A DNA stretch of 64,000 nucleotides, from NCBI GenBank assembly GCA_027484605.1, contig JAIXSR010000034.1:1-64000 (forward strand), read 5' to 3'. The notes beneath the pieces were generated by a model that saw only the letters and a list, made by a program, of their open reading frames with translations, had not been told where the DNA came from and ran no database searches. Below are positions 29,690 through 46,306 of the stretch, piece after piece (position 1 is the first letter of the stretch; the number at the start of each line of letters is the position of its first letter). A program made the position numbers and the translations under genes. This stretch comes from Hyphomicrobiales bacterium (lineage in GTDB: Bacteria > Pseudomonadota > Alphaproteobacteria > Rhizobiales > Beijerinckiaceae).

Positions 29690-29707
29690 GGCCGGGACGC
29701 CCCGATT

Positions 29708-30928
29708 TCAGGGCGCCGGGCAATCCCCAGCGAAGCTGTCCGCATGCCCCTCGGCGATCCGGCGGTCGGTGACAAGCTGGTATTGCCCCTGCGGATCGCG
29801 CTTCACCGAGAGAAGCCACCAATCCTGCACGGGGTGCCGGTTGCGGCCGAAGCGGAACATCCCGCGCGGCGAGGCAATCTCGACCTCGCCGAGATGGCGG
29901 GCAATGATCTCCGGATCATCCGTCTGCCCGCCGGCCCGGAGGATGGCCGCCGCCAATGCCTGCCCGGCATCGAAGCCCTGCATGGCATAGAGGGTCGGCA
30001 CCCGGTTGTAGCGGCTCTGCCATTCCTGGACGAAGCGCCGGTTGGCGGGATTGCCGAAATCGCGGTTCCAGTGCGCGGTGACGAACAGCCCCGCAGCCGA
30101 GGAACCGGCAACGGCAAGCATCCGGTGGTCAAGCGCGCTGGAGGGCAGCACCACGGCGATCTGCTCTGACAGCCTGGCCTCATGGAAGCCCCGCAGGAAG
30201 GCCACGCCGATGCTGCCGGGCAGGAATTGCAGGATGACATCCGGCCTTGCCTCGCGGATCTTCTGCAAGTCCTGGCTGAAATCGACCTGCCCGAAATGCG
30301 CGATGCTCTCGCCGACGATCTGTCCGCCGAAATGCTGCCGGAAACTCTCGACTGCATCGAGTCCGGCCTGGAAACTGGCCGAGATGAGATAGGCCCGGCG
30401 GAACCCCCGGCCGGCAGCGAATTTCGCGGCGATCTCCGGCATGCTGTCGTTATGATAGGAGGTGACGAAATAGCGCGGATGGCAGGTGCGGCCCGACAGG
30501 TCCTTCGGCGCCGCATTCGGGCTGACGAACAGCGCCCCGGCCTGAAGCAGCTCCGGCACGACCAGCACCGCGATATTCGTCGAGACCACCCCGGTGAAGA
30601 GCCGCACACCCTCGTTCCGCAGCAGGTCGCGCGCCTGGGCGAGGCCTTTCTCGGGCACGATCGCATCATCCCGGACGAGGACCTCGGCGATCTCCCGGCC
30701 ATGGGCCTTGCCGGCAATCGACAGCGCCATCAGGAAGCCGTCGCGGATATCCGTCCCGATATAGGCGCTCTGGCCGGAAAGGGAGGTGACAAGCCCTATG
30801 CGCGGACGGGCTGTCCCGCCCGCGGGCTGGGCATGAGCCAGCCCGGGCAGAAGCAGCACGCCGATCGCGAGCAGGAGAGCGGCCAGGCCTGGCCGGCCGC
30901 TGCCCGGCGCGGGTTTCCGCCGGTTCAT
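29708..30928 (-). CDS. Orphan type I periplasmic substrate-binding protein
   Basis: This 406-residue protein has a signal peptide (LALLLAIGVLLLPGLAHAQ-like segment) and a LivK-like fold (RIGLVTSLSGQSAYIGTDIR, VVSTNIAVLVVPELLQAG, GFDAGQALAAAIL). No ABC permease or ATPase is adjacent. Its ATG overlaps the stop of the GGDEF-EAL gene by 4 bp, so the two are co-translated. It probably acts as a periplasmic ligand sensor feeding the c-di-GMP enzyme (inference). Confidence 0.85.
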   Translation of the reverse strand: MNRRKPAPGSGRPGLAALLLAIGVLLLPGLAHAQPAGGTARPRIGLVTSLSGQSAYIGTDIRDGFLMALSIAGKAHGREIAEVLVRDDAIVPEKGLAQARDLLRNEGVRLFTGVVSTNIAVLVVPELLQAGALFVSPNAAPKDLSGRTCHPRYFVTSYHNDSMPEIAAKFAAGRGFRRAYLISASFQAGLDAVESFRQHFGGQIVGESIAHFGQVDFSQDLQKIREARPDVILQFLPGSIGVAFLRGFHEARLSEQIAVVLPSSALDHRMLAVAGSSAAGLFVTAHWNRDFGNPANRRFVQEWQSRYNRVPTLYAMQGFDAGQALAAAILRAGGQTDDPEIIARHLGEVEIASPRGMFRFGRNRHPVQDWWLLSVKRDPQGQYQLVTDRRIAEGHADSFAGDCPAP

Positions 30929-32946
30929 TTCTGGAATTCCCATGCCAGGGCGGGCGCTGCCGCCGACGCTTCGGCCAGCCGGTTCCGGGACCGGGGCGGA
31001 CCATCGTCGCCGCCCTGGCCTTGCGGGCCATCCGGCGGGAACAATGTCCGGATCTCCGAGGCCGGAGCCGGCCGCCCGAGCAAGAATCCCTGCATATGGG
31101 TGCAACCCAATGCAAGGAGCAGGACACGCTGCGCCTCGGTCTCCACGCCTTCCACCGTCACGGTCAGGTTGAGCGCGCGGCCCAGCCCGATGATCGCCTT
31201 GGTGATCTCCCAGGAGGGATTGGCCGGGCTGGTGAGGTTGCGGACAAGCGCCTTGTCGATCTTCAGCACGTCGAGCGGCAGCGAGGAGAGATAGCTCAGG
31301 CTGGAATAGCCGGTACCGAAATCATCGAGCGCGATCTTCACGCCCCATTCGCGCAGCTGCCGCAATTGCTGCATGACCTGGTCGGTTTCCTTGATCAGCG
31401 TGCCTTCGGTGATCTCGAGGCAGAGCCGATGCGGTTCCAGCCCGGCCTCGTCCAGAGCGGTCCGGACCCGGTCCGGCAGGGCGCCGCTGCGGAACTGGAT
31501 CGTCGAGATATTGACGGAGACCCGGAAATGCGCCGGCCAGTTCCGGGCCTCTCTGCAGGCGGCGAAAAGGGCCCAGTCGCCCAGCGCCTCGATCAGGCCG
31601 ATCGATTCCGCGATGGGAATGAAGCTGAGCGGCGGGATTGGTTCGCCTTGCGGGTCTTTCAGCCGGAGCAGTGCCTCGAAACCGCAGATCTCGCTGGTGG
31701 AAGCCTCGAAGAGCGGCTGGAAATTCAGTTCGAACTGGCCGAGATCGACAGCCTCCCGCAACCGCGCCTCGAGGGCCAGCCGGGCCAGCCGCGCCTCGTC
31801 CATCGGGGCGGTGAACATGACGGCCTGGCTGCGGCCGCCATTCTTGGCGGCATAGAGCGCCGTATCGGCCGCCCGCAGGATGTCACGCAGGGTATCGCCG
31901 TCGACCGGTGCCTCGGCCGAGCCGACGGAGCCGCCGATCTCGATATGGTAGCCCTCGAGCAGGAAAGGCCGCGAGAGTTCCGCCACGATGGCATCGGCGA
32001 TTGATCGCGGATCGCATTCCGGCGCCTGCGACCGGGCATGCACGACGGCGAATTCGTCGCCGCCGAGGCGGGCCACGATCGCCTTCGGCCCGGCGGCCTG
32101 AAGGATCCGGCTTCCGACTTCCTGGAGGAGCAGGTCGCCGATTCCGTGGCCCCGGACGTCATTGACCTGCTTGAACCGGTCGAGATCGACGAGATGGATG
32201 TAGAACGCCTCCTTCCGGAGGATCATGGCCTCGATCCGGTTGGTGAAGGCAAAGCGGTTCAGCAGGCCGGTCAGCGCATCATATTGCGCCATCCGCGCGA
32301 TCTTCCGGTCTGCCTTCTGGCGCATGCGCATCTGCCAGAGGGCAGAGAGCAGCGGCAGGGCAAAGACCAGCGCCGACATGCCGCCGATCTTCAGGGAGAG
32401 GTCGCGGATCTGACGCGAATGATGCTGGTAGGTCAGGCTCTGGCTGATCGAGGCGACAGCGACGCCGACCGCATTCCCCCCGATCACGATCGGCATGGTG
32501 ACGGTGGAAATGACATCCTGCTCTCCGCCCGCCTCGGAAAAGCGGATCTCGACAACCGGCTGGCGGCTGGCCAGCCATTGCTCGACCGACGGCCCCGGCA
32601 CCTGGAGGGCGCCGGTCGTCGCCAGCCCGAAATCGAGCGCATCCGATTCGAAGCGGCCCGCGCCTTCCCGATCATGGAGCGCATAGCGGAACAGCGTCCC
32701 GACCCGGGGTGTGTTGGCGAGAAAACTCGTCGTCCGCGTTGTCGGCAGGTCACCGGCGAGGAATTCCGGCAGCGCATCGGTTGATGCGACAAGGAAAGAG
32801 ATGAAGCTTTCCGTCTGTTCCACCGCCTCCTTCGACAGGATCTGGCGGATCGTCATATTGGAAATCAGGATGGAACCGAACATCATCGTGGCGATGGAAG
32901 CAACCATCATGGCCAGATACATGCGAACGCCACGCCACCCTGACAC
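30925..32946 (-). CDS. Membrane GGDEF-EAL c-di-GMP turnover protein
   Basis: The protein has about 673 residues. An N-terminal helix (YLAMMVASIATMMFGSILIS), a periplasmic sensor of about 160 residues and a second helix (GGMSALVFALPLLSALW) are followed by GGDEF (YDALTGLLNRFAF, ARLGGDEFAVV) and EAL (GFEALLRLKD, DDFGTGYSSLSYL, VEGVETEAQ) domains. Both catalytic motifs look intact; no RxxD inhibitory site precedes GGDEF. The start is uncertain: GTG at 32946 after AAGGCGGG, or ATG at 32922. The overlapping downstream gene codes for a periplasmic binding protein. Confidence 0.88.
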   Translation of the reverse strand: MSGWRGVRMYLAMMVASIATMMFGSILISNMTIRQILSKEAVEQTESFISFLVASTDALPEFLAGDLPTTRTTSFLANTPRVGTLFRYALHDREGAGRFESDALDFGLATTGALQVPGPSVEQWLASRQPVVEIRFSEAGGEQDVISTVTMPIVIGGNAVGVAVASISQSLTYQHHSRQIRDLSLKIGGMSALVFALPLLSALWQMRMRQKADRKIARMAQYDALTGLLNRFAFTNRIEAMILRKEAFYIHLVDLDRFKQVNDVRGHGIGDLLLQEVGSRILQAAGPKAIVARLGGDEFAVVHARSQAPECDPRSIADAIVAELSRPFLLEGYHIEIGGSVGSAEAPVDGDTLRDILRAADTALYAAKNGGRSQAVMFTAPMDEARLARLALEARLREAVDLGQFELNFQPLFEASTSEICGFEALLRLKDPQGEPIPPLSFIPIAESIGLIEALGDWALFAACREARNWPAHFRVSVNISTIQFRSGALPDRVRTALDEAGLEPHRLCLEITEGTLIKETDQVMQQLRQLREWGVKIALDDFGTGYSSLSYLSSLPLDVLKIDKALVRNLTSPANPSWEITKAIIGLGRALNLTVTVEGVETEAQRVLLLALGCTHMQGFLLGRPAPASEIRTLFPPDGPQGQGGDDGPPRSRNRLAEASAAAPALAWEFQK

Positions 32947-33160
32947 GGTCAGTTTCCCGCCTTGTGTAAAATTTGACGAGAATTGATATAAAATACATCT
33001 GTAAACAAAACTTGCGCCGGATAGCGCGGTTTTTCGCCTATCGCGGATTTCCACAATCTCAAAAACATATTAAAATCATAGACTTCCGAGCCTCTGGTTG
33101 ACCGGACGAATTGTTGGCCTACCCTCTGGCATTAGGAATTGGCCTGCGGAACGGTTTTTG

Positions 33161-33580
33161 ATGAACGCCCTTGTGCCCTCCGACGATACACGCAGCGATG
33201 TCTGGTTCGTCTATGACGGCGAATGCCCGCTCTGCACGCGCGCCGCGCAGGCCCTGCGGATCCGGAAGGCCGTCGGCACCCTGCATCTGGTCGATGCCCG
33301 GAGCGAAGGCGCGCACCCGCTCGTGCACGAGATCAACCGCCGCGGCCTCGATCTGGACGAGGGCATGGTTCTCGCCTTTGGCGGCCAGTTCTATCACGGT
33401 GCCGATGCCCTGCAGATGATGGCGCTGCTCGGCTCGGGCCAGGGCTGGTTCAACCGGATGAATGCCGCCCTCTTCCGCAAGCCTGCCATCGCCCGCCTCG
33501 CCTACCCGGCCATGCGCGGCGTCAGGAACCTGCTCGTGCGGGTGCGCGGCGCCGGCCGGATCAACAATCTCAGCCGCTAG
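33161..33580 (+). CDS. DCC-family (DUF393) thiol-disulfide protein
   Basis: This 139-residue protein has the family hallmark FVYDGECPLCTRAAQALR (D-G-x-C-x2-C) and a C-terminal GVRNLLVRVRGAGRINNLSR stretch. DCC proteins have a thioredoxin-like fold and unknown redox role. The ATG at 33161 has a weak ribosome site. It is the last chromosomal gene before the integrative element, 28 bp from the left repeat. Confidence 0.88.
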   Translation: MNALVPSDDTRSDVWFVYDGECPLCTRAAQALRIRKAVGTLHLVDARSEGAHPLVHEINRRGLDLDEGMVLAFGGQFYHGADALQMMALLGSGQGWFNRMNAALFRKPAIARLAYPAMRGVRNLLVRVRGAGRINNLSR

Positions 33581-33607
33581 CGGGAAGGACGGGAAGGCCA
33601 GGAGGGG

Positions 33608-33628
33608 AGTGGTGGGGGAAGCAGGACC
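33608..33628. other. Left attachment repeat (displaced tRNA-Tyr 3' end)
   Basis: This 21-bp stretch (core GTGGTGGGGGAAGCAGG) is identical to 46219-46239 and corresponds to the CCA end, acceptor strand and start of the T-arm of tRNA-Tyr. It marks the left junction of the element. Confidence 0.88.
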
Positions 33629-33734: not shown

Positions 33735-35078
33735 ATGCCCCGCAAAAGTCAGTTTCTCGAACTCCATCGCGGGCAATATCGCGTTGTCGTCTCGGTGCCG
33801 CGAGATCTCCATCCCCTGCTTGGCACGAAGCTGAAACGCCCTCTGGGAACCGATAGCCTCACCACCGCTGAAGCCTTGAAATGGCCCATCGTGGCCGAAC
33901 TGAAGCGCCAGATCGACGAGGCCCGCAGAGGCCGTGCCACTGACCCTCTTCGCCAAGAAGCAACGCAGTACCGGGAGGCGCTCGCAAAGGCCCGCACCGA
34001 TAACGAAGCAGAGACCTTGAGATATGCGCTGGCCATCCGGGCGGAGCAGATTGCGGGGAAGCCGGTGGCGGTTGAAAGATTCGGGAACGAGGAGCATCCC
34101 ATCCTTGATCCGCACCGCGCCCAGCAAGCCAAGCAGTTTGCCGATATGGCGCAGGGCCTCGCAACGCCGCTTGATGCCTATCTCAATGCCTTCCATGCTG
34201 AGAACCTTCGTTCGGCCGGCGTCAAGGCCGATGATCTCCGCGCCTTGGAGATGCTGGCAGAATGGTGCCGGAAGGCTGCCATCTCCCCCTTTATCGAGGC
34301 CATAGATCCGCGTACGGCCGGGCGCTTTGTCAGTGAGGCCCTGTTCCCCGGCAAGGCGCGGAAGACCGTGAACAAGTATGTCTCCTCGCTCTCGGCCTAT
34401 TGGCGCTGGATGATCAAGAAGGGCTACCTTGAGGCCAACCCATGGCGCGAGAAGTCGCTACCGAAGGCCCGGCAGGCGGAGGACGAAGCCGAACGCGCCT
34501 TTACCGACGAGGAGGTCCTGAAGCTCCTCAATGGCAAGCCTACGGGCTATCTGGGCCCGCTCATGCAGATTGCCGCACTCACGGGGGCGAGGATCGACGC
34601 GATTGCCAGCCTCAAGGTGAGGGATACCAAGGATGGCATGTTCCGCTTCAAACCCCAGAAGCGCGAGGCCGGCCACCGACTTGTGCCAATCCACTCCGCC
34701 CTGCTGCCAACAATCATCAACCTGACTGAGGGCAAGGGCGAGGAGGAAGACCTCTTCCCCGAACTCCCGCCCCCGCCTCCCGGCTCCGAACGGCATCGCT
34801 CCAACCCGGCCGTGCAGCGCTTCGGGACCTACCGTAAGGGCTTGGGGATTGATGACCGGGTGGCGGGCAAACGAAGCTCCCGCGTCACGTTCCACTCGTT
34901 CCGCCGCTGGTTCATCACGAAGGCTGAACAGGCGGGCATCGCCCCGCATATCATCGCCAGCGTTGTGGGCCACAAGCGGCAGGGCATGACCTTGGGGCTC
35001 TACTCTGGGGGACCCTCGCGGGAGCAGCTCACGGAGTGCGTGGAGGCGGTGAGATTGCCGGAGAGCGTGAAGCTATAA
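33735..35078 (+). CDS. int: Tyrosine recombinase (DUF6538-type integrase) of the element
   Basis: This 447-residue integrase has an N-terminal arm domain like DUF6538 (FLELHRGQYRVVVSVPRDLH), a central SAM-like core-binding region and a C-terminal catalytic domain. The Arg I site is in LTGARIDAIASL, the H-x-x-R is in FHSFRRWF, the second His is in VVGHKRQG and the Tyr nucleophile is in LGLYSGG. It should catalyse insertion into and excision from tRNA-Tyr. GGAGGTGATTC precedes the ATG. It reads inward from the left repeat. Confidence 0.93.
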   Translation: MPRKSQFLELHRGQYRVVVSVPRDLHPLLGTKLKRPLGTDSLTTAEALKWPIVAELKRQIDEARRGRATDPLRQEATQYREALAKARTDNEAETLRYALAIRAEQIAGKPVAVERFGNEEHPILDPHRAQQAKQFADMAQGLATPLDAYLNAFHAENLRSAGVKADDLRALEMLAEWCRKAAISPFIEAIDPRTAGRFVSEALFPGKARKTVNKYVSSLSAYWRWMIKKGYLEANPWREKSLPKARQAEDEAERAFTDEEVLKLLNGKPTGYLGPLMQIAALTGARIDAIASLKVRDTKDGMFRFKPQKREAGHRLVPIHSALLPTIINLTEGKGEEEDLFPELPPPPPGSERHRSNPAVQRFGTYRKGLGIDDRVAGKRSSRVTFHSFRRWFITKAEQAGIAPHIIASVVGHKRQGMTLGLYSGGPSREQLTECVEAVRLPESVKL

Positions 35079-36098: not shown

Positions 36099-36857
36099 TC
36101 AAAATTCTTGTGACATCGATATTTTAATGCGAACAGAAGCGCAAATGCGTTTATAATTTTCACCTTTTCGAGAAGCAGCAATAACCAAAAGTTGCAGTTT
36201 GCTAAATTTAACAGACCTTCCCTGACGAGATAGCTGCCGAGTTAAGATAGCAAGCAGAGACTTCCCGCGCAAAATACGTCCAAATTCTAAAAAAATTTCG
36301 TCAAAAAAATCAGTGGGAAAGTCCTCACCTGGATTTAAGACTATTGAACTTTTATAAAATTCTTCGTCATCTAATACTTTTCCAGGATGAGTTCGAAATT
36401 CACTCGATTGGCCGTTAAGGTGCTTGTAAACTGCTATCGCATACCAGCCACAAAACTTTTTTAGCTCAGTAAAAAAGGCCTTTCTTTCGTTTTCATCTAA
36501 AATACTAATCAGATCACCATCATTAAATAAGTCGTTTTCGATAGAATACCCGTCGGTTGTGATTATTTCCTTTAATTGTTCATCTTCAGGAATTCCAGTG
36601 TGAACCCACAAATCCTTATCAACAACAAATGCGCAAGGAATCTTTAATTTATGCGCCCGCACCCTCCGTTGGATTTCCAAAACAGAGGTTTTATTGCCTG
36701 CAGGCAACACGTCGACACCAATATCTTTTAAATCTTCTTCCATTTTTCTATAGAATATAATATCGTTTGGGCCCTCCACCAGCACGGTAGGAAGGCTAGT
36801 CCTTTTTAATACTTCAAACAATTCCTCAGTAGTCGGCCTTGCGTTTTTGTGAACCAT
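36099..36857 (-). CDS. ariB: DUF4435 TOPRIM-like effector, AriB-like (PARIS)
   Basis: This 252-residue DUF4435 protein has TOPRIM-type features: Glu28 in TVLVEGPNDIIFYRKM, then VLPAGNKTSVLEIQRRV, the acidic CAFVVDKDLW and TDGYSIENDLF. In the PARIS anti-phage system a DUF4435 protein (AriB) is released by its ATPase partner AriA on sensing a phage anti-restriction protein and then cleaves host tRNA. It lies 2 bp downstream of the ATPase gene, the PARIS order. The coding sequence is AT-rich and uses codons unlike the chromosome, a sign of recent transfer. Confidence 0.82.
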   Translation of the reverse strand: MVHKNARPTTEELFEVLKRTSLPTVLVEGPNDIIFYRKMEEDLKDIGVDVLPAGNKTSVLEIQRRVRAHKLKIPCAFVVDKDLWVHTGIPEDEQLKEIITTDGYSIENDLFNDGDLISILDENERKAFFTELKKFCGWYAIAVYKHLNGQSSEFRTHPGKVLDDEEFYKSSIVLNPGEDFPTDFFDEIFLEFGRILRGKSLLAILTRQLSRQGRSVKFSKLQLLVIAASRKGENYKRICASVRIKISMSQEF

Positions 36858-36859
36858 AT

Positions 36860-37972
36860 TTAATCACCCCGATCTAGGCCGATAACAATTTCTTTTTCGG
36901 GGTACTTGCTGTAAATAAATGGGGAGTGAGTCGCAAAAATAAATTGATTGCTAGAGTTTTGGGATTGCAGAATAGCATACAATTGTCTTTGCCAATCAAC
37001 GTGAAGGCTCAATTCTGGCTCGTCGATTAATATAACAGAATTAGAGAAAAACGCATTATAACAAATAAAACTTAACATCTGCTTTTCACCAGCGGAGAGT
37101 TTGTCACTGTTCACCGCAGCTGCGGCATCTCCAAAACTTAATCTTCTGCCAAAAGAAATTCCAGAATGATGGAACAGTGTCTCGACAAGCGCTCGAATAG
37201 CATCGAGAGGCTTCATTGTTTTCTTCGTAAATTCCTCAATTTTCTCAATCTCAGCCCGCGTTGTAGAGAGTACGGAATTGGCCTTTGCTGCCGAGTTCGT
37301 TGAGCTTTGGTATTGTTTGATTGTTTCAATTACGCTTCGTGTAACTTCCTGCTGAAAATTGTTTATTTCCTCAGAAAAAGAGGCATAACGCCTCAATAGC
37401 AACCCAACAATATCTTGAGTAGAAATTGCTGATACGAATATGTGCTCCCTATTGGTCAAAGTCCGCGAAATAGACGAGATGACATCATCTACATCTTTGC
37501 TCCCGGTGGCCCAAGATGGCCCCCTGGAGCGAGGCGTGCTCTCGGTTCGCAGCGAAAATCCGCCCTCAATTCGACGAAAAGTTGGAAAGAAAATTGAGCT
37601 GCCAAGCTCTATAAGATATGGCTTTACCTGATCTTCAGCTGACTCGTTAAAGGACTCATCACCGTCATCGCTTCCATCATCTTCGAATTTAAAAGACTCC
37701 CCATTTCTATCAAAAAAAACTCGGCAAAATACACTTCCTGTCCTTATTACAGTACACGTATAAAGATCTGTTTCTATAGTACAGGACTTGAATACAATCT
37801 CACGTAATGCATGAATAATATTGCCGCTCATAATGAACCAAGCAAGTTTCATTATTGTTGTTTTTCCGGATCCGTTACGCCCCGTCAAAATATTTAGGTC
37901 GGGATTCAAGTCATAGCTGACTTCACCCGATCGGCCAGATAGACCTACAACGGAAATTCTTTTAAGGATCAT
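36860..37972 (-). CDS. ariA: AAA_15/ABC-like ATPase, AriA-like (PARIS)
   Basis: This 370-residue RecF/OLD-type ATPase has Walker A GRNGSGKTT at residues 31-39, a central coiled-coil-like region (SVIETIKQYQSSTNSAAKAN), signature KLSAGEKQMLSF, Walker B SVILIDEPELSLHVDW and an H-loop FATHSPFIYS. It would be the sensor/scaffold ATPase of the PARIS pair. The gene is AT-rich like its partner. Other ATPase-TOPRIM defence pairs exist, but DUF4435 as partner favours PARIS. Confidence 0.82.
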   Translation of the reverse strand: MILKRISVVGLSGRSGEVSYDLNPDLNILTGRNGSGKTTIMKLAWFIMSGNIIHALREIVFKSCTIETDLYTCTVIRTGSVFCRVFFDRNGESFKFEDDGSDDGDESFNESAEDQVKPYLIELGSSIFFPTFRRIEGGFSLRTESTPRSRGPSWATGSKDVDDVISSISRTLTNREHIFVSAISTQDIVGLLLRRYASFSEEINNFQQEVTRSVIETIKQYQSSTNSAAKANSVLSTTRAEIEKIEEFTKKTMKPLDAIRALVETLFHHSGISFGRRLSFGDAAAAVNSDKLSAGEKQMLSFICYNAFFSNSVILIDEPELSLHVDWQRQLYAILQSQNSSNQFIFATHSPFIYSKYPEKEIVIGLDRGD

Positions 37973-38505
37973 TAGATGAGTACCGCTCCGGAAACTGCAG
38001 TCGTTAAATAATAGCCATATTATATCACCTCATAGATAGATAGAGCAATCTTGCCGCGTAGTTCGGCTGCACATGGGTCGCTCCTTTAAAGCCGGTGGGT
38101 GGTTTCGCAAGGCCATCGCGTTCTGTTCTCGATCTCAGCTTAACTCACGGCTTGCGGCGCAGACGTAAAATCTCCAGATCTGCGACACTAATGGCTTCGA
38201 GGTCATTTGGCGAAATGGGACAAGGGTTGTTCACGGCGAGAGGTCACTCGCCTGAGTGCCTTCCCATCGTTAGTTACGTGTAAATGTCCCTGCCCCCCGC
38301 CCCTTGCCGCGCTTTTTCGCCGTGCAGCGCTCCATCTCGCAGGGATGTCAAAGATCTTTGCTTGCGCTCTAAGGTGCCCAATAGACCTAGCCCCATTGGG
38401 CGCGTCCATCACGCGGTTTGATTGCGCCCAAATGAATGGTATTGCTTTTTGGACGCTCACGACTCACAATGTTTAGGAGTTAATTGGACACTGCGAGAAC
38501 TGACG
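37973..38505. other. Non-coding gap between AriA-like gene and serine recombinase
   Basis: This 533-bp stretch holds no credible gene. Its left 100 bp is AT-rich and should contain the ariAB promoter (CATATTATATCACC region); the rest returns to mid-high GC. The part next to the recombinase could contain its recombination site, but I see no clear inverted repeat pair. Confidence 0.5.
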
Positions 38506-39075
38506 ATGCTGATTGGGTATGCGAGAACATCCACCTTTGAACAGATTGCCGGATTCGAGGCTCAACTCCGCGAGCTGGCCAGCGCGGGATGCGAGAAGAT
38601 ATTCCAAGAGAGAGTATCGTCAGTTGAACCGAGGGCTCAACTGGAAACCGCTTTGGAGTTTTGCCGAGAGGGCGACACGCTTGTTGTCTCGAAGCTGGAC
38701 CGGCTAGCGCGGTCAAACGTTCACTTGTGGGAGATCGTTCGGAGGCTGGACGAGAAAGGCGTTCGGCTACGGGTACTGAACCTAGGTGGAGATGCGGTGG
38801 ATACAGGGGGAGCGGCCGGGCGGCTCATGCTGAATATCTTTTCCTCCTTTGCGCAGTTCGAACGCGAAATGATGTTGGAACGACAACGCGAGGGCATCGC
38901 CAAGGCAAAAGCCGCGGGGAAATACAGAGGTAGAGCGCCTACTGCGTCATTGAAGGCAGAGGAAGCCCGAAGGCTCCACATGGATGGCAAGACGCCCACC
39001 GAGATCGCAAGGGTACTTGGGATAGGCAGAGGAAGTGTTTACCGAGCGATAGCTGGAACACAGGCCCAGCCATAG
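38506..39075 (+). CDS. Serine recombinase, resolvase/invertase family
   Basis: This 189-residue small serine recombinase has the nucleophile Ser9 in IGYARTSTFEQ, conserved VSKLDRLARS, the motif GRLMLNIFSSFAQFERE(M) and a C-terminal helix-turn-helix (TPTEIARVLGIGRGSVYRAI). Such proteins resolve cointegrates or invert segments at a nearby site. The ATG at 38506 (MLIGYAR) is the family start. It may derive from a transposon lost around it. Confidence 0.93.
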   Translation: MLIGYARTSTFEQIAGFEAQLRELASAGCEKIFQERVSSVEPRAQLETALEFCREGDTLVVSKLDRLARSNVHLWEIVRRLDEKGVRLRVLNLGGDAVDTGGAAGRLMLNIFSSFAQFEREMMLERQREGIAKAKAAGKYRGRAPTASLKAEEARRLHMDGKTPTEIARVLGIGRGSVYRAIAGTQAQP

Positions 39076-39461
39076 ACGAGCTGGCAACCCCAGGAAAAAC
39101 GCCGTCGGGTTAACGTCCGCACTGTGCTGCACTGCTTGCATTTTAGCTTAGCGCTCCAATGTCAGAGTGCGGACCGCCCTGCAATGCTCAAGCCCTAGGG
39201 GAGACGGCCAAATGCACTCGGCTTAGCACTCCAGGGAGATCCGTCTCCAAGTGTGTGCAGACATTGAGCCACCTGGGGCATCCAACAGTGAGCGCCTACC
39301 CCAACCTAAGGGGCAATCCAGGAAACCATGTGGAGGCCGCAAGTAGAGCACTAGCAACCGCACACCGACCCCCACATCAAACAACCCTTTAGCTGTGATC
39401 GAGGTAATGCCCAATCAACGACCCCAAGACAGAAACTAAGATAGAACTCAAGGTAGCCCAG

Positions 39462-39576
39462 AGGGAAGACCGGAGGGAAGACCGGAGGGAAGACCAGTAG
39501 GAAGTTCAGGATGGAGGTTCAGGATGGAGGTTCAGGGGGAAGATCAGAGGGAAGTTCAGGGGAAATATCAGAGGGC
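39462..39576. repeat. Short purine-rich tandem repeats
   Basis: Within the 665-bp gene-free gap 39076-39740, AGGGAAGACCGG is repeated about three times (12-bp period), followed by AGGTTCAGGATGG copies (13-bp period) and degenerate AGATCAGAGGGAAGTTCAGGG units. The tract is strongly purine-biased on the plus strand. It lies about 165 bp before the RNase H-like gene. The rest of the gap shows no gene. Confidence 0.8.
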
Positions 39577-39740
39577 ATATGATAGTCAAAACCACCCATC
39601 AAAATACGAACAAGACCGATACGTAATTCCATAATGCTTATTCCGAAGAGAAATTTTTTAATTTGTAGTTGACGACGCCTCATACTTCTGATTTATGCGC
39701 GTCGCGGTCAATCCGACCGAGTTCTAATGCAAGGAGACCA

Positions 39741-40259
39741 ATGAACAATCATTGGAACTACCAACCAAAGCCGCCGCATTTTGCGAAATCGGGCAATTTC
39801 ACCGCGCATATCAGCGGTAGCGGCTCCCGCACTGACCTGTCTGCAGCAGCTGTGTCAGTCATTCAGATGGAAGGGCCGGACATCAAGTATGAGGCCATTT
39901 TCGTGAGCAGGGATGGAAGCACGTCGCCGAGGGCGCATCACGCCGCTGTAGTTGGCGCTCTTGAGGCAGTACCTTATGGAGCTGCCTTGGAGATCTGCAC
40001 CGTTGACGAAAACACGGCCTATCTCCTTCAAAATGACCTCGCTGGTTGGGAGGCGAACGGTTGGCGAAAGGCCGATGGCTCAATCCCCGCCAATCTGGAT
40101 ATTCTCAAAAGGATATCTGACACGATCCGCGAGAAGGGCCTGAAGGTCACGGTAAAGCTAGTCCGTGATCGGAAGTCGATTGATGGACTAACTATCGAAG
40201 CCTTGAAGAAGAAGGCCAATGAGCGTCGAAAGCAGGAAAGCTTGGAGCGTGCTGCATAA
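39741..40259 (+). CDS. RNase H-like fold protein with degenerate active site
   Basis: The 172-residue product aligns by eye with RNase HI: HHAAVVGALEAVPYGAALEI then TVDENTAYLLQNDLAGWEA and GWRKADGSIPANLDILKRIS parallel the RNase HI MELMAAIVALEAL, DSQYVRQGI and GWKTADKKPVKNVDLW segments. The first catalytic Asp region reads ISGSGS and the helix Glu is His66/67; Asp89 is kept. It is therefore probably a binding or structural protein rather than a nuclease, unless active in another way. AAGGAGA precedes the ATG at 39741. It overlaps the next gene by 41 bp. Confidence 0.65.
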   Translation: MNNHWNYQPKPPHFAKSGNFTAHISGSGSRTDLSAAAVSVIQMEGPDIKYEAIFVSRDGSTSPRAHHAAVVGALEAVPYGAALEICTVDENTAYLLQNDLAGWEANGWRKADGSIPANLDILKRISDTIREKGLKVTVKLVRDRKSIDGLTIEALKKKANERRKQESLERAA

Positions 40260-41019
40260 GGCAGGCAATAGCCTTGAAGCCCCAGGGGTTCATCCCCCGG
40301 GGCACTCTTCATGCACCATCCCCGGCTGTGGACGCACCACGGCAAAAGCAGCCGGGACCGGCTTTGCGGAGCATCATTGCCGCTACCATGTGCAGTTCAA
40401 GGCGCGGCACGGCTCGCACTGGTGCCCGACCTATCGCGCGGCAGAGCTGAAGCCATACGTCACCGTCGCGAAGGGCTGGCTGCGGAACCATCGCCAGCAT
40501 CCCACCGTCGCGATGGCTCTGGCTTGGCTTGAAGGCCTCCTCGCGAATGCAGGCCGGGCGGAGATGGCGCAGAACATCAAGCGCTGGCCGGCAGCGGACA
40601 GGGCCAAGGTTGCCTTTGCACGGCTTCGCGAGGCCGGCGTTGAGGCGGAGCGGGTCTTGGCGATTTACCTCGCGGTCTCAGCCCTGATCGAGGATGATCG
40701 CGGGAGCCACCGGGTCCGTGAGTTCAAAAATGTTCAGGTCGCAAAGGCCCTTCACCGGCTGGCCTCGGGAACGCACAAAAGCTGGGAGTTCGATACCGGC
40801 AGAGGCGTGGTGCCAGTGCGGATGGACGTATACCCGAAATCCTCGGGCCTCGTGCTTCGCGTCATGGGAGAGGCCATCGAGGAATGCGCCGGCAACGTGA
40901 GCGACATCGCCTTAGAGCCGATCCTCGCGGCCAAGCAAGAGCGCTATGGCCTCCATGTCTCGCATCTGCCGGGCTGGGAGCCGCTCTGGAAGCGCCAGAC
41001 GAAAGGGCCTGAAGCGTGA
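40219..41019 (+). CDS. Putative zinc-finger DNA-binding protein of unknown function
   Basis: This 266-residue protein has an N-terminal C-x4-C-x16-C-x2-H cluster (C32, C37, C54, H57; CTIPGCGR and HHCRYH), resembling short zinc fingers found with phage and mobile-element proteins. The remainder is helical with no motif I recognise. The start overlaps the RNase H-like gene and the stop overlaps the polymerase-like gene by 4 bp, so the three are a coupled operon. A DNA- or RNA-recognition role in replication of the element is possible (inference). Confidence 0.7.
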   Translation: MSVESRKAWSVLHKAGNSLEAPGVHPPGHSSCTIPGCGRTTAKAAGTGFAEHHCRYHVQFKARHGSHWCPTYRAAELKPYVTVAKGWLRNHRQHPTVAMALAWLEGLLANAGRAEMAQNIKRWPAADRAKVAFARLREAGVEAERVLAIYLAVSALIEDDRGSHRVREFKNVQVAKALHRLASGTHKSWEFDTGRGVVPVRMDVYPKSSGLVLRVMGEAIEECAGNVSDIALEPILAAKQERYGLHVSHLPGWEPLWKRQTKGPEA

Positions 41020-42431
41020 CAAGGCGGATCACTCAAGCGGCTGATCAGGCGGCAGGGGGAGCGTCAGCACAGGTCGAAGCCCCTTCGCCCCTACCGCGAG
41101 GCCGGAAGCTTCAGGCTGGGCCGCGAGATATCCTCTTTGATCCGCAGAAGCGAGCGGCATCGCCCGCGCTCAAGGCCAGCATCAAGGCCCTTGCGGGCTA
41201 TCTGGAGGCCCAGGAACGGCAATGCGGTCTCAGGGTGAGGCGACGTAGCCCGGCACAGAGAACGGCCTTCCTACTCGCTCTAGAGGCGCTTGCCTGCAAC
41301 CTCGCTTGGCTGCTGATGGCCGCTCCGGGCCGCCCTATGGCCATGCCGCGCGATAACAACCTGATGCGCGGGAAGAGCCGCTATAAGCCGGAGGTCTATG
41401 GCTCTGCCTTTGTCGAGACGCTCACGATCATGGCCCATCCTCAGGTCGGGCTGATTGACGATGCTCAGCGCGGCTACCGCGTTGGACAAAATCGCCAAGC
41501 TTCACTTGTCCTTCCCCTCCCCGCTTTTGAAGAACACGTCCCCGTTTCTTCGCTCACATGGGAGAGCTTCACTCGCCTGCCGCCGCGCGAGGTGCTGATC
41601 CTGAAGAGCGCCAAGGATGCCGAAGGCGATGCCAGCCAAATTGACTATTGCGACACCGACCGGCTTCGGACGATGCGCAATGAGGTCATCCGCCTCAACA
41701 AGCGCCTAGAGGCTCTGCCGATCATCCTTGAGCGGCCTTCAGGCGAACCGCTGCTTGATCACGATGGCCTGCCGGTTGATCCGACAAGGCGAGCCCTCAG
41801 GCGCATCTTCAACAATGGGAGCTGGTATGATGGCGGGCGGCTCTTCGATGGCTTCTGGGAGACGATGCCTCGCGAGATGCGCTTCAGGCATCTGCGCCTT
41901 TCCTCCAAGGATCACCCCGAAGGCGAGGCTATCGCCAATGTGGATTTCGAGCAGCTCTTCCCGCACCTCGCCTATCACAAGGCCCGCATCGCTCCGCCTG
42001 AACGTGACCTTTATGACCTTGAAGGCGATGGCCAGAACCGGAAGGGTTGGAAGCAGCTGCTCAATGCCCAGCTCTTCGCCAAGGGCCGCCTGAAGGCATG
42101 GCCGCGCGATTGCCGCGAAGCGTTCGACAAGCCGCCGGCCTTCAAGGAGGCTTGTGCCCTGCTGGAGGAGCGGCATCGCCCCATTGCGCATCTCTTCGGA
42201 ACGGGCATCGGGTTCCACCTGATGTTCCAAGAGAGTTCCGCCCTGATTGTGGCGCTAGGGTACCTTCACGAAGAAGGCATTCCCGCCCTGCCGCTCCATG
42301 ACAGTGTTCTCGTCCCCCGATCCCAAGCGGAGAGGGCGAAGATGCTGCTTCAAGCTGCCTTAGAGCGCTGCATCGAGAAGTCTCGCGCGGCAGTCTCCAT
42401 CAACTACGGCTATGATATACAAAAGGAATAG
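41016..42431 (+). CDS. Family-A-polymerase-like palm-domain protein
   Basis: The 471-residue product is not a known annotated enzyme to me, but residues 258-455 carry a polymerase palm order: a lead-in RRIFNNGSWYDGGRLFDGFW (about 262-281); motif A ANVDFEQLFPHLAY with Asp310; a motif-B-like KQLLNAQLFAKG (K346, N350); and motif C LPLHDSVLVP with His428-Asp429-Ser430. Motif C ends in HDS, as in T7-type RNA polymerases, whereas PolA has HDE. No exonuclease domain is seen. Being co-transcribed with RNase H-like and zinc-finger genes suggests a replication or nucleic-acid synthesis role for the element. Confidence 0.65.
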   Translation: MTRRITQAADQAAGGASAQVEAPSPLPRGRKLQAGPRDILFDPQKRAASPALKASIKALAGYLEAQERQCGLRVRRRSPAQRTAFLLALEALACNLAWLLMAAPGRPMAMPRDNNLMRGKSRYKPEVYGSAFVETLTIMAHPQVGLIDDAQRGYRVGQNRQASLVLPLPAFEEHVPVSSLTWESFTRLPPREVLILKSAKDAEGDASQIDYCDTDRLRTMRNEVIRLNKRLEALPIILERPSGEPLLDHDGLPVDPTRRALRRIFNNGSWYDGGRLFDGFWETMPREMRFRHLRLSSKDHPEGEAIANVDFEQLFPHLAYHKARIAPPERDLYDLEGDGQNRKGWKQLLNAQLFAKGRLKAWPRDCREAFDKPPAFKEACALLEERHRPIAHLFGTGIGFHLMFQESSALIVALGYLHEEGIPALPLHDSVLVPRSQAERAKMLLQAALERCIEKSRAAVSINYGYDIQKE

Positions 42432-43399: not shown

Positions 43400-43565
43400 C
43401 ACCAGCCCACCGCATGAAACAATTGCTTCCCGACAATACCGTTGTGGCAAACGGTGTCGAGAGGTCTGAAAAAGACAAGGCACTGCCTGCAGTACGAGCA
43501 CTATAGCGCCTTCCGTTTCAAAACTCACGATGTTAACCTCTCTTTAAGCGTGAGTGAGGTGGCTG

Positions 43566-45059
43566 ATGCGCAAGCTTCTTTCTGTGATCTTCATTCTGGT
43601 TTCAGCTTGGGTGGCCTTGCCAGTTCATGCCCAGGAGGATGATCGCCGCCTCCATGAGTTCTATTCCTCGCTTGATCTGGAGATTCGGGTTTGGCTCCAG
43701 CGCGGGCTGATCTGGACTGATCATTATGTCGGTATCGCGGATGGCAATTTCGGTGGTCGATCCATCGACGCTGTTCGGAGCTTTCAGCGGAGCATCAACC
43801 AGGTGCCTAACGGCATCATGACGCGTGAGCAGCTGCGCCGGCTTTCCGCGGAAGCCGATCGGATCGAAAGCGCATTCGGCTATCGGCTCCACCATGACCC
43901 CGCGACCGGGGCAACGATTGGGCTCCCGGGCAAGTTCGTGTCCCAAGTCACCAACCTTCGCCGAGGGACGCAATTCGCCTCCAGCAACGGCGAGGTGGAT
44001 ATGGTCACGATCCGCATTCCGCTGGCCGAGCGGAGTTTGGCAGACCTTTATCGCATCCATACGCGCAAGGCTGGCCGCTCTGTTGAGTACTCGGTCTTCC
44101 GAGGCGATTGGTTCGTCGTCACCGGAAAGGAAGACGGCAAGCACTTCTACGTCCGTGCCCATAGCTGGGGCGAGGATATCCGGGGGTTTGCCATCAGCTA
44201 TCATGCGAACCTACAACAGGTCTTTGGTCGCCTGACCACGGCCATGTCCAGCGACTTCAAGCCCGACTCCAGCACAAGGAGCGTTGCCGAGAGCCGCATG
44301 GACTGGGGGAGCTTCAGTGCCCGCTTTGGCGGACCTCCCGCGCCCGCCCCCGCTCCAGCCCCCAGCATCGCAGCAGCGCCTCCAGTCCAATCTCAGTCAC
44401 CATCTGGGGTAGGCGGGCCGAGTGAACCGCCGAAGGGCAACATCACGACCGGTAGCGGCTTCCTCGTCTCATCCTCCGGCCATTTCCTGACGAATGCCCA
44501 TGTCGTGGAATCCTGCCGGCAAGTCAGCGTCGGCATGTTTGGCAACGCCCGGCTGATCGATCGGGACGCAACCAATGACCTCGCGCTTCTGAAAGTCGAC
44601 GCCGCTGTTCCGGCGAAGCCACTCGCCTTTTCCGAAATCGGCCCCCGCTTGGGCGAAGAGGTGATTGCCCTTGGCTATCCGCTCCAGACCATCCTCCAGA
44701 ACGGCTTGAACGTGACGAAGGGGGACGTTTCCTCACTCGCCGGCATGGGGGGAGACTCGCGCTTCCTTCAGTTCACAGCGGCAATCCAGCCGGGGAATTC
44801 TGGCGGCCCCTTGGTGAGCAAGCGCGGCGCGGTCCTTGGCGTAGTGACCTCCAAGCTTAATGCCATGAAGGTCGCGTCAGCGGTGGGTGACGTGCCGCAA
44901 TCCGTCAATTTCGCCATCCAGCCCCAATTGGCAGAGCTGTACCTCCGCCGCCATGGCATAGGCGTCACCCGACCGGAGCCGATGGATAAGACCCCCGAGG
45001 CCCATGAGATCATCGCCAAAATCCGCGATGCCGTGAACATCGTGATTTGCACGCAGTGA
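43566..45059 (+). CDS. Exported trypsin-like serine protease with peptidoglycan-binding-like domain
   Basis: The protein has 497 residues. A signal peptide (LLSVIFILVSAWVALPVHA) is followed by a peptidoglycan-binding-like repeat (ADGNFGGRSIDAVRSFQRSI, GIMTREQL), a middle domain of about 130 residues, a Pro/Ala linker and a C-terminal trypsin-2 domain. The catalytic triad is visible: His in FLTNAHVVE, Asp in RDATNDLALLKVD, Ser in QPGNSGGPLV. No PDZ domain follows. The ATG at 43566 has GAGGTGG upstream. It resembles periplasmic envelope proteases. Confidence 0.85.
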   Translation: MRKLLSVIFILVSAWVALPVHAQEDDRRLHEFYSSLDLEIRVWLQRGLIWTDHYVGIADGNFGGRSIDAVRSFQRSINQVPNGIMTREQLRRLSAEADRIESAFGYRLHHDPATGATIGLPGKFVSQVTNLRRGTQFASSNGEVDMVTIRIPLAERSLADLYRIHTRKAGRSVEYSVFRGDWFVVTGKEDGKHFYVRAHSWGEDIRGFAISYHANLQQVFGRLTTAMSSDFKPDSSTRSVAESRMDWGSFSARFGGPPAPAPAPAPSIAAAPPVQSQSPSGVGGPSEPPKGNITTGSGFLVSSSGHFLTNAHVVESCRQVSVGMFGNARLIDRDATNDLALLKVDAAVPAKPLAFSEIGPRLGEEVIALGYPLQTILQNGLNVTKGDVSSLAGMGGDSRFLQFTAAIQPGNSGGPLVSKRGAVLGVVTSKLNAMKVASAVGDVPQSVNFAIQPQLAELYLRRHGIGVTRPEPMDKTPEAHEIIAKIRDAVNIVICTQ

Positions 45060-45074
45060 CCTGCGCTGCCGGGA

Positions 45075-46052
45075 TTACGGTCCGGCCTTTGCCGCCTTGA
45101 TGAGTTCCCGTTGCGCCCTGAGGATCTTGCGCAAACCCTTGAGGTCGGATGGGTCAACCATTCGGTGAATCATGCGGTGGCAGTTGCTGCAAAGGACAGT
45201 GAAGTCCTTTTCGATATCGAGAGCCGTCGGCTTGCCCTCCTCAAGAGCATGAAGCGGGCGCAGATGATGTGCCTCGATAAACCCTTCTCCGAGGGCGCCG
45301 TAACGCTTCGCGAAATCAAGACCACAAGCCCGGCATGTTGTGCCGTGGAGGCGTTTTGCTTTCTTCGCGGCGGTTGGGTTTCTCTCGATCCGAAGGTGGC
45401 GCCCATATTGGCGCATTTCGAGGACTTCGCCGCCCTGCTCTTTGGGGGCTTCCTCAACTAGATCAACGGGAGGTCCACGGAAAAGAAGCGCTCGATAGGC
45501 CCGGACCATGTCTGTGAGGTCGCTCAGAATCGACTTCTCGTCCGGCCATTGCGAAAGCGAATAGGTAACCCCGAGGATATGGCCCGCTTCGTAATCCTTT
45601 GGGAGTTGACGCGAAGAGCCCAGATCAATCGCGCCGATCGGAAACCGCGGCATCCAGTCTCTTAGCTTCAGCCTGGCCTCTTTGGATCGCCCGAGTAAAG
45701 CCTCCGGGGCCGTTGCCCCAAACTCCCGGCGAACGGCTGTGGTGCCTTGATTGAGCGAGAGAGCAACTGTGCCGGCGGGAACGTTGAAAAGATAGACCGC
45801 ATAAATGCCCCTTTGGGCAGTATCGGTCTCAGAGGCATCAAAGACCGCGAGCCAGGGAACATCCGCCCATTGCCCCTGCCCCGGGCTCCCAGTGACCGTA
45901 AGGTTGGGCTGCTGGGCTTGTAGCGCCTCTATCAGGCCCTTCGGCAATGTTGACCGAATGAAGTTCGCTAGCGGATGACCGGTAAAGGGTTCACCGCGAG
46001 CCGCGCCATACTCCAAAAGCACGCGCCGAAGTCCGTCTGCAATCATCACCAT
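45075..46052 (-). CDS. DUF3578 (McrB-N-like)-HNH type IV restriction endonuclease
   Basis: The protein has 325 residues. The N-terminal half matches the DUF3578 domain (GSPGQGQWADVPWLAVFDAS, GIYAVYLFNV, VALSLNQGTT), which recognises modified DNA in McrB-type enzymes. The C-terminus is an HNH nuclease with zinc Cys pairs (CRACGLDF, CSNCHRMIH) and the catalytic EAHHLRPL. Such fusions cut phage DNA with modified bases. It converges with the protease gene (15-bp gap) and its start is 85 bp from the right-end repeats. The ATG at 46052 has GAGG upstream. Confidence 0.87.
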   Translation of the reverse strand: MVMIADGLRRVLLEYGAARGEPFTGHPLANFIRSTLPKGLIEALQAQQPNLTVTGSPGQGQWADVPWLAVFDASETDTAQRGIYAVYLFNVPAGTVALSLNQGTTAVRREFGATAPEALLGRSKEARLKLRDWMPRFPIGAIDLGSSRQLPKDYEAGHILGVTYSLSQWPDEKSILSDLTDMVRAYRALLFRGPPVDLVEEAPKEQGGEVLEMRQYGRHLRIERNPTAAKKAKRLHGTTCRACGLDFAKRYGALGEGFIEAHHLRPLHALEEGKPTALDIEKDFTVLCSNCHRMIHRMVDPSDLKGLRKILRAQRELIKAAKAGP

Positions 46053-46136
46053 TCGCCTCGCCAATCCGCCGATTAGCAAAGTCTAATGTTCAGATGGGAA
46101 AGTCAAAGCGCGGGTTGGCGGTTTCCAGACTGTCCT

Positions 46137-46170
46137 GGGGTACGCAGCTGGGGTACGCACTGGGGACGCA
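46137..46170. repeat. Right arm-type repeats GGGGTACGCA x2 plus a variant
   Basis: GGGGTACGCA occurs at 46137-46146 and 46150-46159, with GGGGACGCA at 46162-46170. The unit and spacing mirror the left end (33691-33713), both in the same orientation. Likely integrase arm sites. Confidence 0.75.
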
Positions 46171-46218
46171 GAGGCCAAAAACTGACCTCTAAGTCATTGA
46201 AAAATAAGGATGAAAAAA

Positions 46219-46239
46219 GAGTGGTGGGGGAAGCAGGAC
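46219..46239. other. Right attachment repeat within tRNA-Tyr
   Basis: This 21-bp direct repeat is identical to 33608-33628. It covers the tRNA-Tyr CCA, acceptor 3' strand and first T-arm bases, so insertion restored a full tRNA. Confidence 0.88.
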
Positions 46240-46306
46240 TCGAACCTGCGAAGGCTTAGCCAGCGGATTTACAGTCCGCCCCCTTTGCCGCTCGGGACAT
46301 TCCCCC
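46222..46306 (-). tRNA. tRNA-Tyr (GTA)
   Basis: This 85-nt class II tRNA has acceptor GGGGGAA pairing with TTCCCCC, anticodon GTA (46270-46272 on the plus strand as TAC) in a CGGACTGTAAATCCG stem-loop, a long variable arm, a T-arm GCAGG-TTCGAAC-CTGC and an encoded CCA. It is the integration site of the element on its left. Confidence 0.97.

Follow-up and report, generated by a model that had tools for sequence, protein, structure and literature searches.

In a 64,000-nucleotide stretch of the Hyphomicrobiales contig JAIXSR010000034.1 (Beijerinckiaceae; hereafter the window), the open reading frame (ORF) at 41016-42431 is real and its predicted product, as judged from motifs and modelled fold, is a compact family-A-type polymerase. 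By profile, this predicted polymerase belongs with the divPolA2 proteins of phages and is not a new subfamily, and its anatomy and gene context match the TV-Pol family. We consider it rather probable, if far from certain, that this TV-Pol/divPolA2-type polymerase replicates a 12.6-kb integrative element that occupies a tRNA-Tyr gene in the window.

The frame is open throughout and carries Asp310 and His428-Asp429-Ser430 where a preliminary description of the window had placed them. In an alignment of the window protein with 72 relatives (A4; 73 rows from 90, i.e., the window and 89 loci, of which 17 were left out as near-duplicates, as short or cut ORFs or, in some cases, by choice, with the start of L124 trimmed), R275, D310, R342, K346, H428, and D429 are invariant (73/73, window included). 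A more divergent alignment (A1; 33 rows from 37 collected ORFs after exclusion of the short or broken L008, L022, L024, and L036) retains R275, D310, K346, H428, and D429 in 33/33 rows and R342 in 32/33. Because they are invariant in A4 and nearly so in A1, the predicted polymerase motifs, whose positions were assigned from the alignments and the hhalign register, lie far above chance. The segment ahead of motif A, previously singled out as an unusual lead-in, is present but turns out to be a conserved block (R263, F/Y265, G273-G274-R275, L/F276, and F/Y277, each in 73/73 rows of A4), and hhalign sets this block opposite the T-G-R-L motif of DNA polymerase I (Pol I). The fingers motif offered as motif B is likewise there, but the string given for it starts at K346 and misses R342 of RxxxK. 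The HDS ending of motif C had been taken as a hint of an RNA polymerase; this residue, however, is variable among the relatives (of the 73 rows of A4, 40 have A, 15 S, 11 G, and 7 C, and none reads HDE), which rules HDS out as such a mark. The ratio of nonsynonymous to synonymous substitution rates (dN/dS), determined against a 91%-identical relative in locus L040, is 0.216 for the polymerase gene and 0.155 for its upstream neighbour C3, which points to constraint on both putative proteins.

Searched as a single sequence against Pfam, NCBIfam, and the PDB, the window protein gave nothing usable. No Pfam family matched it at E 1, DNA_pol_A (PF00476) and nuclease domains included, and DNA_pol_A is not among the 25 Pfam families listed for the 73 rows of A4. 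An AlphaFold2 model built with A4, however, agrees with the family-A palm of the preliminary description, which had proposed structure prediction as a check. The model is confident (mean predicted local distance difference test score (pLDDT) 91.3, predicted template modelling (TM) score 0.87) except for residues 1-34, which are of low confidence, and Foldseek returned 86 PDB matches at E <= 0.001 (best E 9.8e-06). The best 50 of these 86 are A-family DNA polymerases or fragments thereof, Pol I structures first, with low whole-length TM scores of about 0.2-0.3. A fold search of BFVD gave 11 leading matches that are all viral (400-450 amino acids (aa), TM 0.45-0.65) and mostly without a name; one of them, from a Rheinheimera Barba phage, is named 'DNA polymerase', and rank 33 carries an RNA polymerase annotation (E 6.5e-04). 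Comparison of the diverse alignment A1 with Pol I by hhalign (probability 77, E 2e-05) put the GR motif, motif A, and HD in register. The invariant motifs and the predicted fold thus bear out the proposed palm, and no exonuclease was recognised in the window protein, as had been stated. A winged helix at residues 79-167, read only from the predicted order of helices and strands, was dropped; no helix-turn-helix occurs among the Pfam families listed.

The preliminary description was also correct in assigning the gene to an integrative element. The element measures 12.6 kb and is bracketed by exact 21-bp attachment (att) repeats of the tRNA-Tyr 3' end. The site is empty in three genomes of the same genus (G002, G013, and G015), in which the sequences corresponding to about 29.69 kb and to the tRNA at 46.22 kb of the window are only 72-93 bp apart. 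The same tRNA holds a 9.5-kb sister element in G012 and a 2.7-kb remnant in G009 that keeps an open polymerase frame of 444 aa. The G012 sister comprises an integrase with 90% aa identity to that of the window, its own divergent AriA/AriB-like pair, a serine recombinase, a polymerase and, by reading of its ORF, a C3 homologue. Cargo changes between the sister elements and the polymerase is retained, also in the remnant. Between the conserved left flank and the element, the window has an extra 3.9 kb with a GGDEF-EAL gene (29690-33606), which is absent in G002, G012, G013, and G015. Three-copy repeats with a GGGGTACG core are present beside the right att in the window (46135-46171) and in L181, and near the att of L113; they are perhaps integrase arm sites.

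This arrangement recurs in other loci. We searched for tRNA repeats in 92 loci (89 fetched loci, the window, and its two sisters), all chosen for holding the polymerase and a few of them closely related (L111 and L121 in the tree). A tRNA was in reach in 46/92 loci (54 tRNAs in total), and an exact repeat of at least 15 bp was found beyond the polymerase, on its far side, for 31/54 tRNAs and elsewhere for 2. With the window and its sisters subtracted, the counts are 28/48 tRNAs in 27 loci against 1 elsewhere. Elements span 7 to 14 kb, apart from the 2.7-kb remnant. Of the 27 bounded elements, 24 encode a serine recombinase, 23 a tyrosine integrase, 20 a C3, and 4 type I restriction genes; the window element has both recombinases. 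Of 95 loci, 45 have C3 within 6 kb of the polymerase, and the recombinase and integrase clusters are each present in 56. The first 25 of 75 Pfam families matched by 105 other element proteins include restriction-modification, TIR, AAA_21, reverse transcriptase, HNH, and RNase H. Among the first 25 of 104 PHROG families of the same proteins, no capsid or terminase appears under the named ones, while families named helicase (matched by two of the 105 proteins), polymerase (2), and DNA polymerase (1) do; beyond these 25 families, packaging genes may still occur.

The window protein had been described as unrecognised and possibly of a new subfamily, a view that we cannot uphold. One PHROG family matches it, phrog_4756 (function unassigned; E 1.6e-10), as do 73/73 rows of A4, and the divPolA2 representative AUR84708 matches the same family at 1.8e-91. 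Alignment A4 compared with 11 phage divPolA2 rows (A7) gave an hhalign probability of 100 (E 2.7e-42); direct BLASTP of the window protein against AUR84708 reached only E 0.005. The description of divPolA2 from tailed phages by Yutin et al. (2024; PMC11348598) gives it an active palm and an unfamiliar N-terminal domain, without exonuclease or normal thumb, and leaves its role between a repair DNA polymerase and an RNA polymerase. TV-Pol, as outlined by Iyer, Abhiman, and Aravind (2008; PMC2579912), has 400-600 aa and a minimal A-family palm without nuclease, with a beta-hairpin Arg and an RxxxK plus a conserved Asp in the fingers; one subset described there resides in mobile elements, where its neighbours are a gamma-delta resolvase, a lambda-type integrase or a transposase and restriction-modification operons often surround it, and the proteins were predicted to be primase-polymerases. 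The window protein is standalone with 471 aa, and the corresponding residues D310, D429, R275, R342, and K346 are present in 73/73 and D331 in 72/73 rows of A4; we read D331 as the probable fingers Asp of the 2008 paper. The adjacent recombinases also agree with that subset. Since neither the A4 nor the A1 profile matched the named TV-Pol carrier, Microcystis phage Ma-LMM01, at E 1, the TV-Pol identity rests on these features and the gene context.

Most likely, we infer, the polymerase serves as the element's own primase-polymerase. The tyrosine integrase would excise the element as a circle, on which the polymerase would start and extend DNA synthesis, as CCPol-MP of staphylococcal cassette chromosome (SCC) elements does in vitro. 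C3, with its Cys3His set, would probably hold or recognise the template for the polymerase, resolution of multimers would fall to the serine recombinase, and the RNase H-like protein encoded upstream may act on or bind RNA-DNA hybrids. The AriA/AriB-like genes and other defence genes would be exchangeable cargo. For CCPol-MP, conversion of an A-family polymerase into a DNA primase by a small partner is described (PMC7581432, PMC10061031), and the authors of 2020 stated that, to their knowledge, no other TV-Pol member had been characterised biochemically (PMC7581432).

Several observations weigh against this explanation. No helicase (D5 type included) or primase was recognised among the ten ORFs of the window element, although TV-Pol and CCPol are described as often linked to D5-type helicases (PMC2579912, PMC7581432). 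The A4 alignment, which is narrower than A1, matches Pol I only weakly in hhalign (probability 2.8). A 12-nt tandem array upstream of the RNase H-like gene (9.6 copies, 39459-39575) has an iteron-like look, but Tandem Repeats Finder over 91 loci revealed no enrichment of such arrays near the polymerase, and an iteron-like origin was rejected. C3 was found in 2/385 genomes of the class (the window's own and G436) as compared with 31/385 for the polymerase, no match to which was obtained in G436; C3 is therefore not strictly tied to the polymerase and, by these counts, marks a sub-lineage, being neither a general nor an exclusive partner. The integrase family of the window occurs in 60/385 class genomes, mostly away from the polymerase, and is therefore not specific to these elements; besides the window, positions compared by eye place it within 5 kb of a polymerase match in five genomes (G082, G255, G269, G310, and G399). 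Finally, the Pol I steric-gate Glu, present at the position equivalent to D310+5 in 19/19 Pol I sequences (A8), is Glu in 0/73 rows of A4, and the F762-position aromatic is absent (0/73); K346+4, Phe in 19/19 Pol I, is N, S, Q, A, G or L in 73/73 and never F or Y. As both ribose-excluding residues are missing, the sugar choice may go either way, towards DNA or RNA synthesis. Among the 11 phage rows, 2 have the steric-gate Glu, 2 a motif C ending in E, and 2 a Phe in place of the motif C His, so these traits vary across the wider family.

The alternatives to an element replicase are less probable. A repair, gap-filling or counter-defence polymerase, carried as cargo, would fit the phage divPolA2, portrayed as supplementary to a normal replicase and encoded in neighbourhoods that vary (PMC11348598), and the restriction, TIR, AriA/AriB-like, and other defence-type genes of the elements. 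We regard it as unlikely, though as the leading competitor, because the polymerase is frequently paired with the serine recombinase and C3 and is kept while cargo changes between sisters at one tRNA site. Next in order, and unlikely as well, comes a single-subunit RNA polymerase akin to the T7 or mitochondrial enzymes that would transcribe the element or make RNA primers. The best 50 PDB fold matches being DNA polymerases argues against it, as does the fact that no promoter-recognition domain was recognised in the window protein; the position of T7 Y639 (K346+8) is F or Y in only 47/73 rows of A4, and hhalign found no match between A4 and T7 RNA polymerase (probability 0.5), a weak test with one sequence.

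The loss of both ribose-excluding residues also invites the idea of a sugar-permissive A-family primase-polymerase that, with C3, would begin chains with ribonucleotides and continue them with DNA, the element-borne RNase H-like protein handling the hybrids. We hold this version to be doubtful and place it after the two preceding alternatives; if true, small elements that carry defence genes would have a replication system with a single active site, which they would share with large tailed phages through exchange. Loss of polymerase activity, leaving a DNA-binding or structural protein, could be read from the missing K+4 fingers aromatic and Pol I motif A Glu (73/73 each). This is highly improbable, as all 73 rows retain both metal-binding Asp residues, the GGR Arg, and the R and K of RxxxK, and the dN/dS of the gene is 0.216.

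Features of the polymerase gene and the integrative element in the window (positions in nucleotides; functions as predicted)
Feature	Position	Strand	Evidence or remark
TV-Pol/divPolA2-type family-A polymerase, 471 aa	41016..42431	+	GTG start
R275, GGR motif	41838..41840	+	73/73 rows of A4
D310, motif A catalytic Asp	41943..41945	+	73/73 rows of A4
R342-x-x-x-K346, fingers motif B	42039..42053	+	73/73 rows of A4
H428-D429-S430, motif C	42297..42305	+	H and D in 73/73; third residue varies
Left att repeat, exact 21-bp copy of tRNA-Tyr 3' end	33607..33627	+	G012 sister shares left end beside conserved left flank
Right att repeat in tRNA-Tyr 3' end (gene 46222-46306, minus strand)	46219..46239	+	Exact repeat; empty sites
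Tyrosine integrase, 447 aa (Phage_integrase, DUF6538), just inside left att	33735..35078	+	Pfam 7.4e-09, 2.9e-08
AriB-like cargo (DUF4435 / OLD-like TOPRIM), PARIS-like defence	36099..36857	-	PADLOC AriB 4.4e-10; Pfam DUF4435 1.5e-07
AriA-like AAA ATPase cargo, PARIS-like defence	36860..37972	-	PADLOC AriA 5.9e-28, PtuA 3e-25; Pfam AAA_21 2.4e-19
Small serine recombinase, resolvase type	38422..39075	+	Pfam Resolvase 6.3e-38 from residue 31 on
RNase H-like protein	39669..40259	+	phrog_531 1.4e-07; RNase HI profile 4.3e-06 and alignment
Partner protein C3, mostly helical	40219..41019	+	Alignments A5, A6; model

The stop codon of C3 overlaps the polymerase start by 4 bp. Residues C32, C37, C54, and H57 of C3 are invariant (28/28 and 30/30 rows of A5 and A6), from which we infer that the protein binds zinc. 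Its predicted model (pLDDT 88.4) is mostly helical and found no fold match in the PDB at E 0.001, so that assignment to a known fold was abandoned; the idea that C3 is an N-terminal domain split off from the polymerase was rejected as well (hhalign probability 0.2). The supplement of the 2008 TV-Pol paper names TV-PolN and C3RHD domains (PMC2579912), either of which C3 may represent. In the alignment, the RNase H-like protein seems to have other residues in place of its three catalytic acids, with an Asp one place off at the third, and it may therefore bind and not cut hybrids. In the window, L048, L092, and L123, copies matching the RNase HI profile begin 1343-1376 bp ahead of the polymerase start, and in L112 the distance is shorter; the weakest of these divergent copies is that of L048 (0.0055). 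True RNase HI is found near the polymerase in five other loci, four of which built the profile. With five true and five divergent loci, a minority, the RNase H-like gene was discarded as a shared core gene. The true start of the serine recombinase is probably downstream of 38422, and a trypsin-like protease with a peptidoglycan-binding domain and an MrcB_N-HNH protein, both recognised by Pfam beside the right att (43554-46079), are probable cargo.

Relatives of the polymerase were found in 9/61 genomes from the relatives of the host, and in 21/385 genomes of the class by single protein and 31/385 by the A4 profile (own genome counted throughout). Further matches came from three plasmid records and two phage records. 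A scan of genome contigs found 401 relatives (best 80 retained), and a scan of viral contigs found 9; viral contigs scanned with the single window protein yielded no relative. In a quick tree of 111 rows, the window clusters with 11 other alphaproteobacterial rows (support 99), and 10/11 phage rows stand apart, alongside two class genomes (support 96); the eleventh sits on a long branch on the bacterial side. The Rhodobacteraceae genome HTCC2083 has two copies of the polymerase gene (L098 and L099), distant from each other on one scaffold. Relatives of divPolA2 are common in Vibrio phages (ICP1 among them) and Rheinheimera barbaviruses (281 and 266 records in two queries).

The polymerase family itself is already in print, as TV-Pol in 2008 and divPolA2 in 2024. 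The present analysis adds a bounded element that has sister elements and whose site is empty in three congeneric genomes, a link between phage divPolA2 and bacterial elements, and a catalogue of the element's tyrosine integrase, serine recombinase, Cys3His partner, and PARIS-like cargo. Our literature search on divPolA2 returned the Yutin paper and its preprint only, and none of the titles in the capped listings from one library links divPolA2 with these bacterial elements. A 2026 survey of bacterial DNA polymerases lists PolA1, PolA2, PolA3, and PolA1-like (PMC12926913). The bounded element, for which one genus provides empty sites, a sister, and a remnant, offers a compact natural system for testing the primase-polymerase prediction of 2008, and linking its family to the phage proteins makes the question of DNA versus RNA polymerase a broader one. 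These elements also carry PARIS-like, restriction, and TIR-type genes.

Compared with known systems, the window protein shares the GR motif, motif A, RxxxK, and HD with Pol I, but differs in lacking a Pfam match, exonucleases, HDE, the steric gate, and the K+4 aromatic. Pipolins, the elements of piPolB, are also described as integrative elements with their own polymerase, yet theirs is of family B and not family A. The CCPol-MP and PolA-SSB primases of SCC and other Bacillota elements resemble the present case in that an exonuclease-free A-family polymerase stands beside a small partner in a recombinase-bearing element (PMC7581432, PMC10061031). However, CCPol is reported to keep E710 and F762 (PMC7581432), both of which are absent in the window family (73/73), and its partner is portrayed as an OB-fold single-stranded DNA-binding protein (SSB) in a complex without a zinc domain (PMC7581432, PMC10061031), whereas C3 has a Cys3His set and a predominantly helical model. 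A D5-like helicase is linked or fused in other TV-Pol subsets, as far as these are described, in contrast to the window element, where none was recognised. The likeness to divPolA2 extends to the same PHROG family, the profile match, and the lack of an exonuclease; divPolA2 is presented as a spare polymerase of large phages (PMC11348598), whereas its relatives here belong to bacterial integrative elements.
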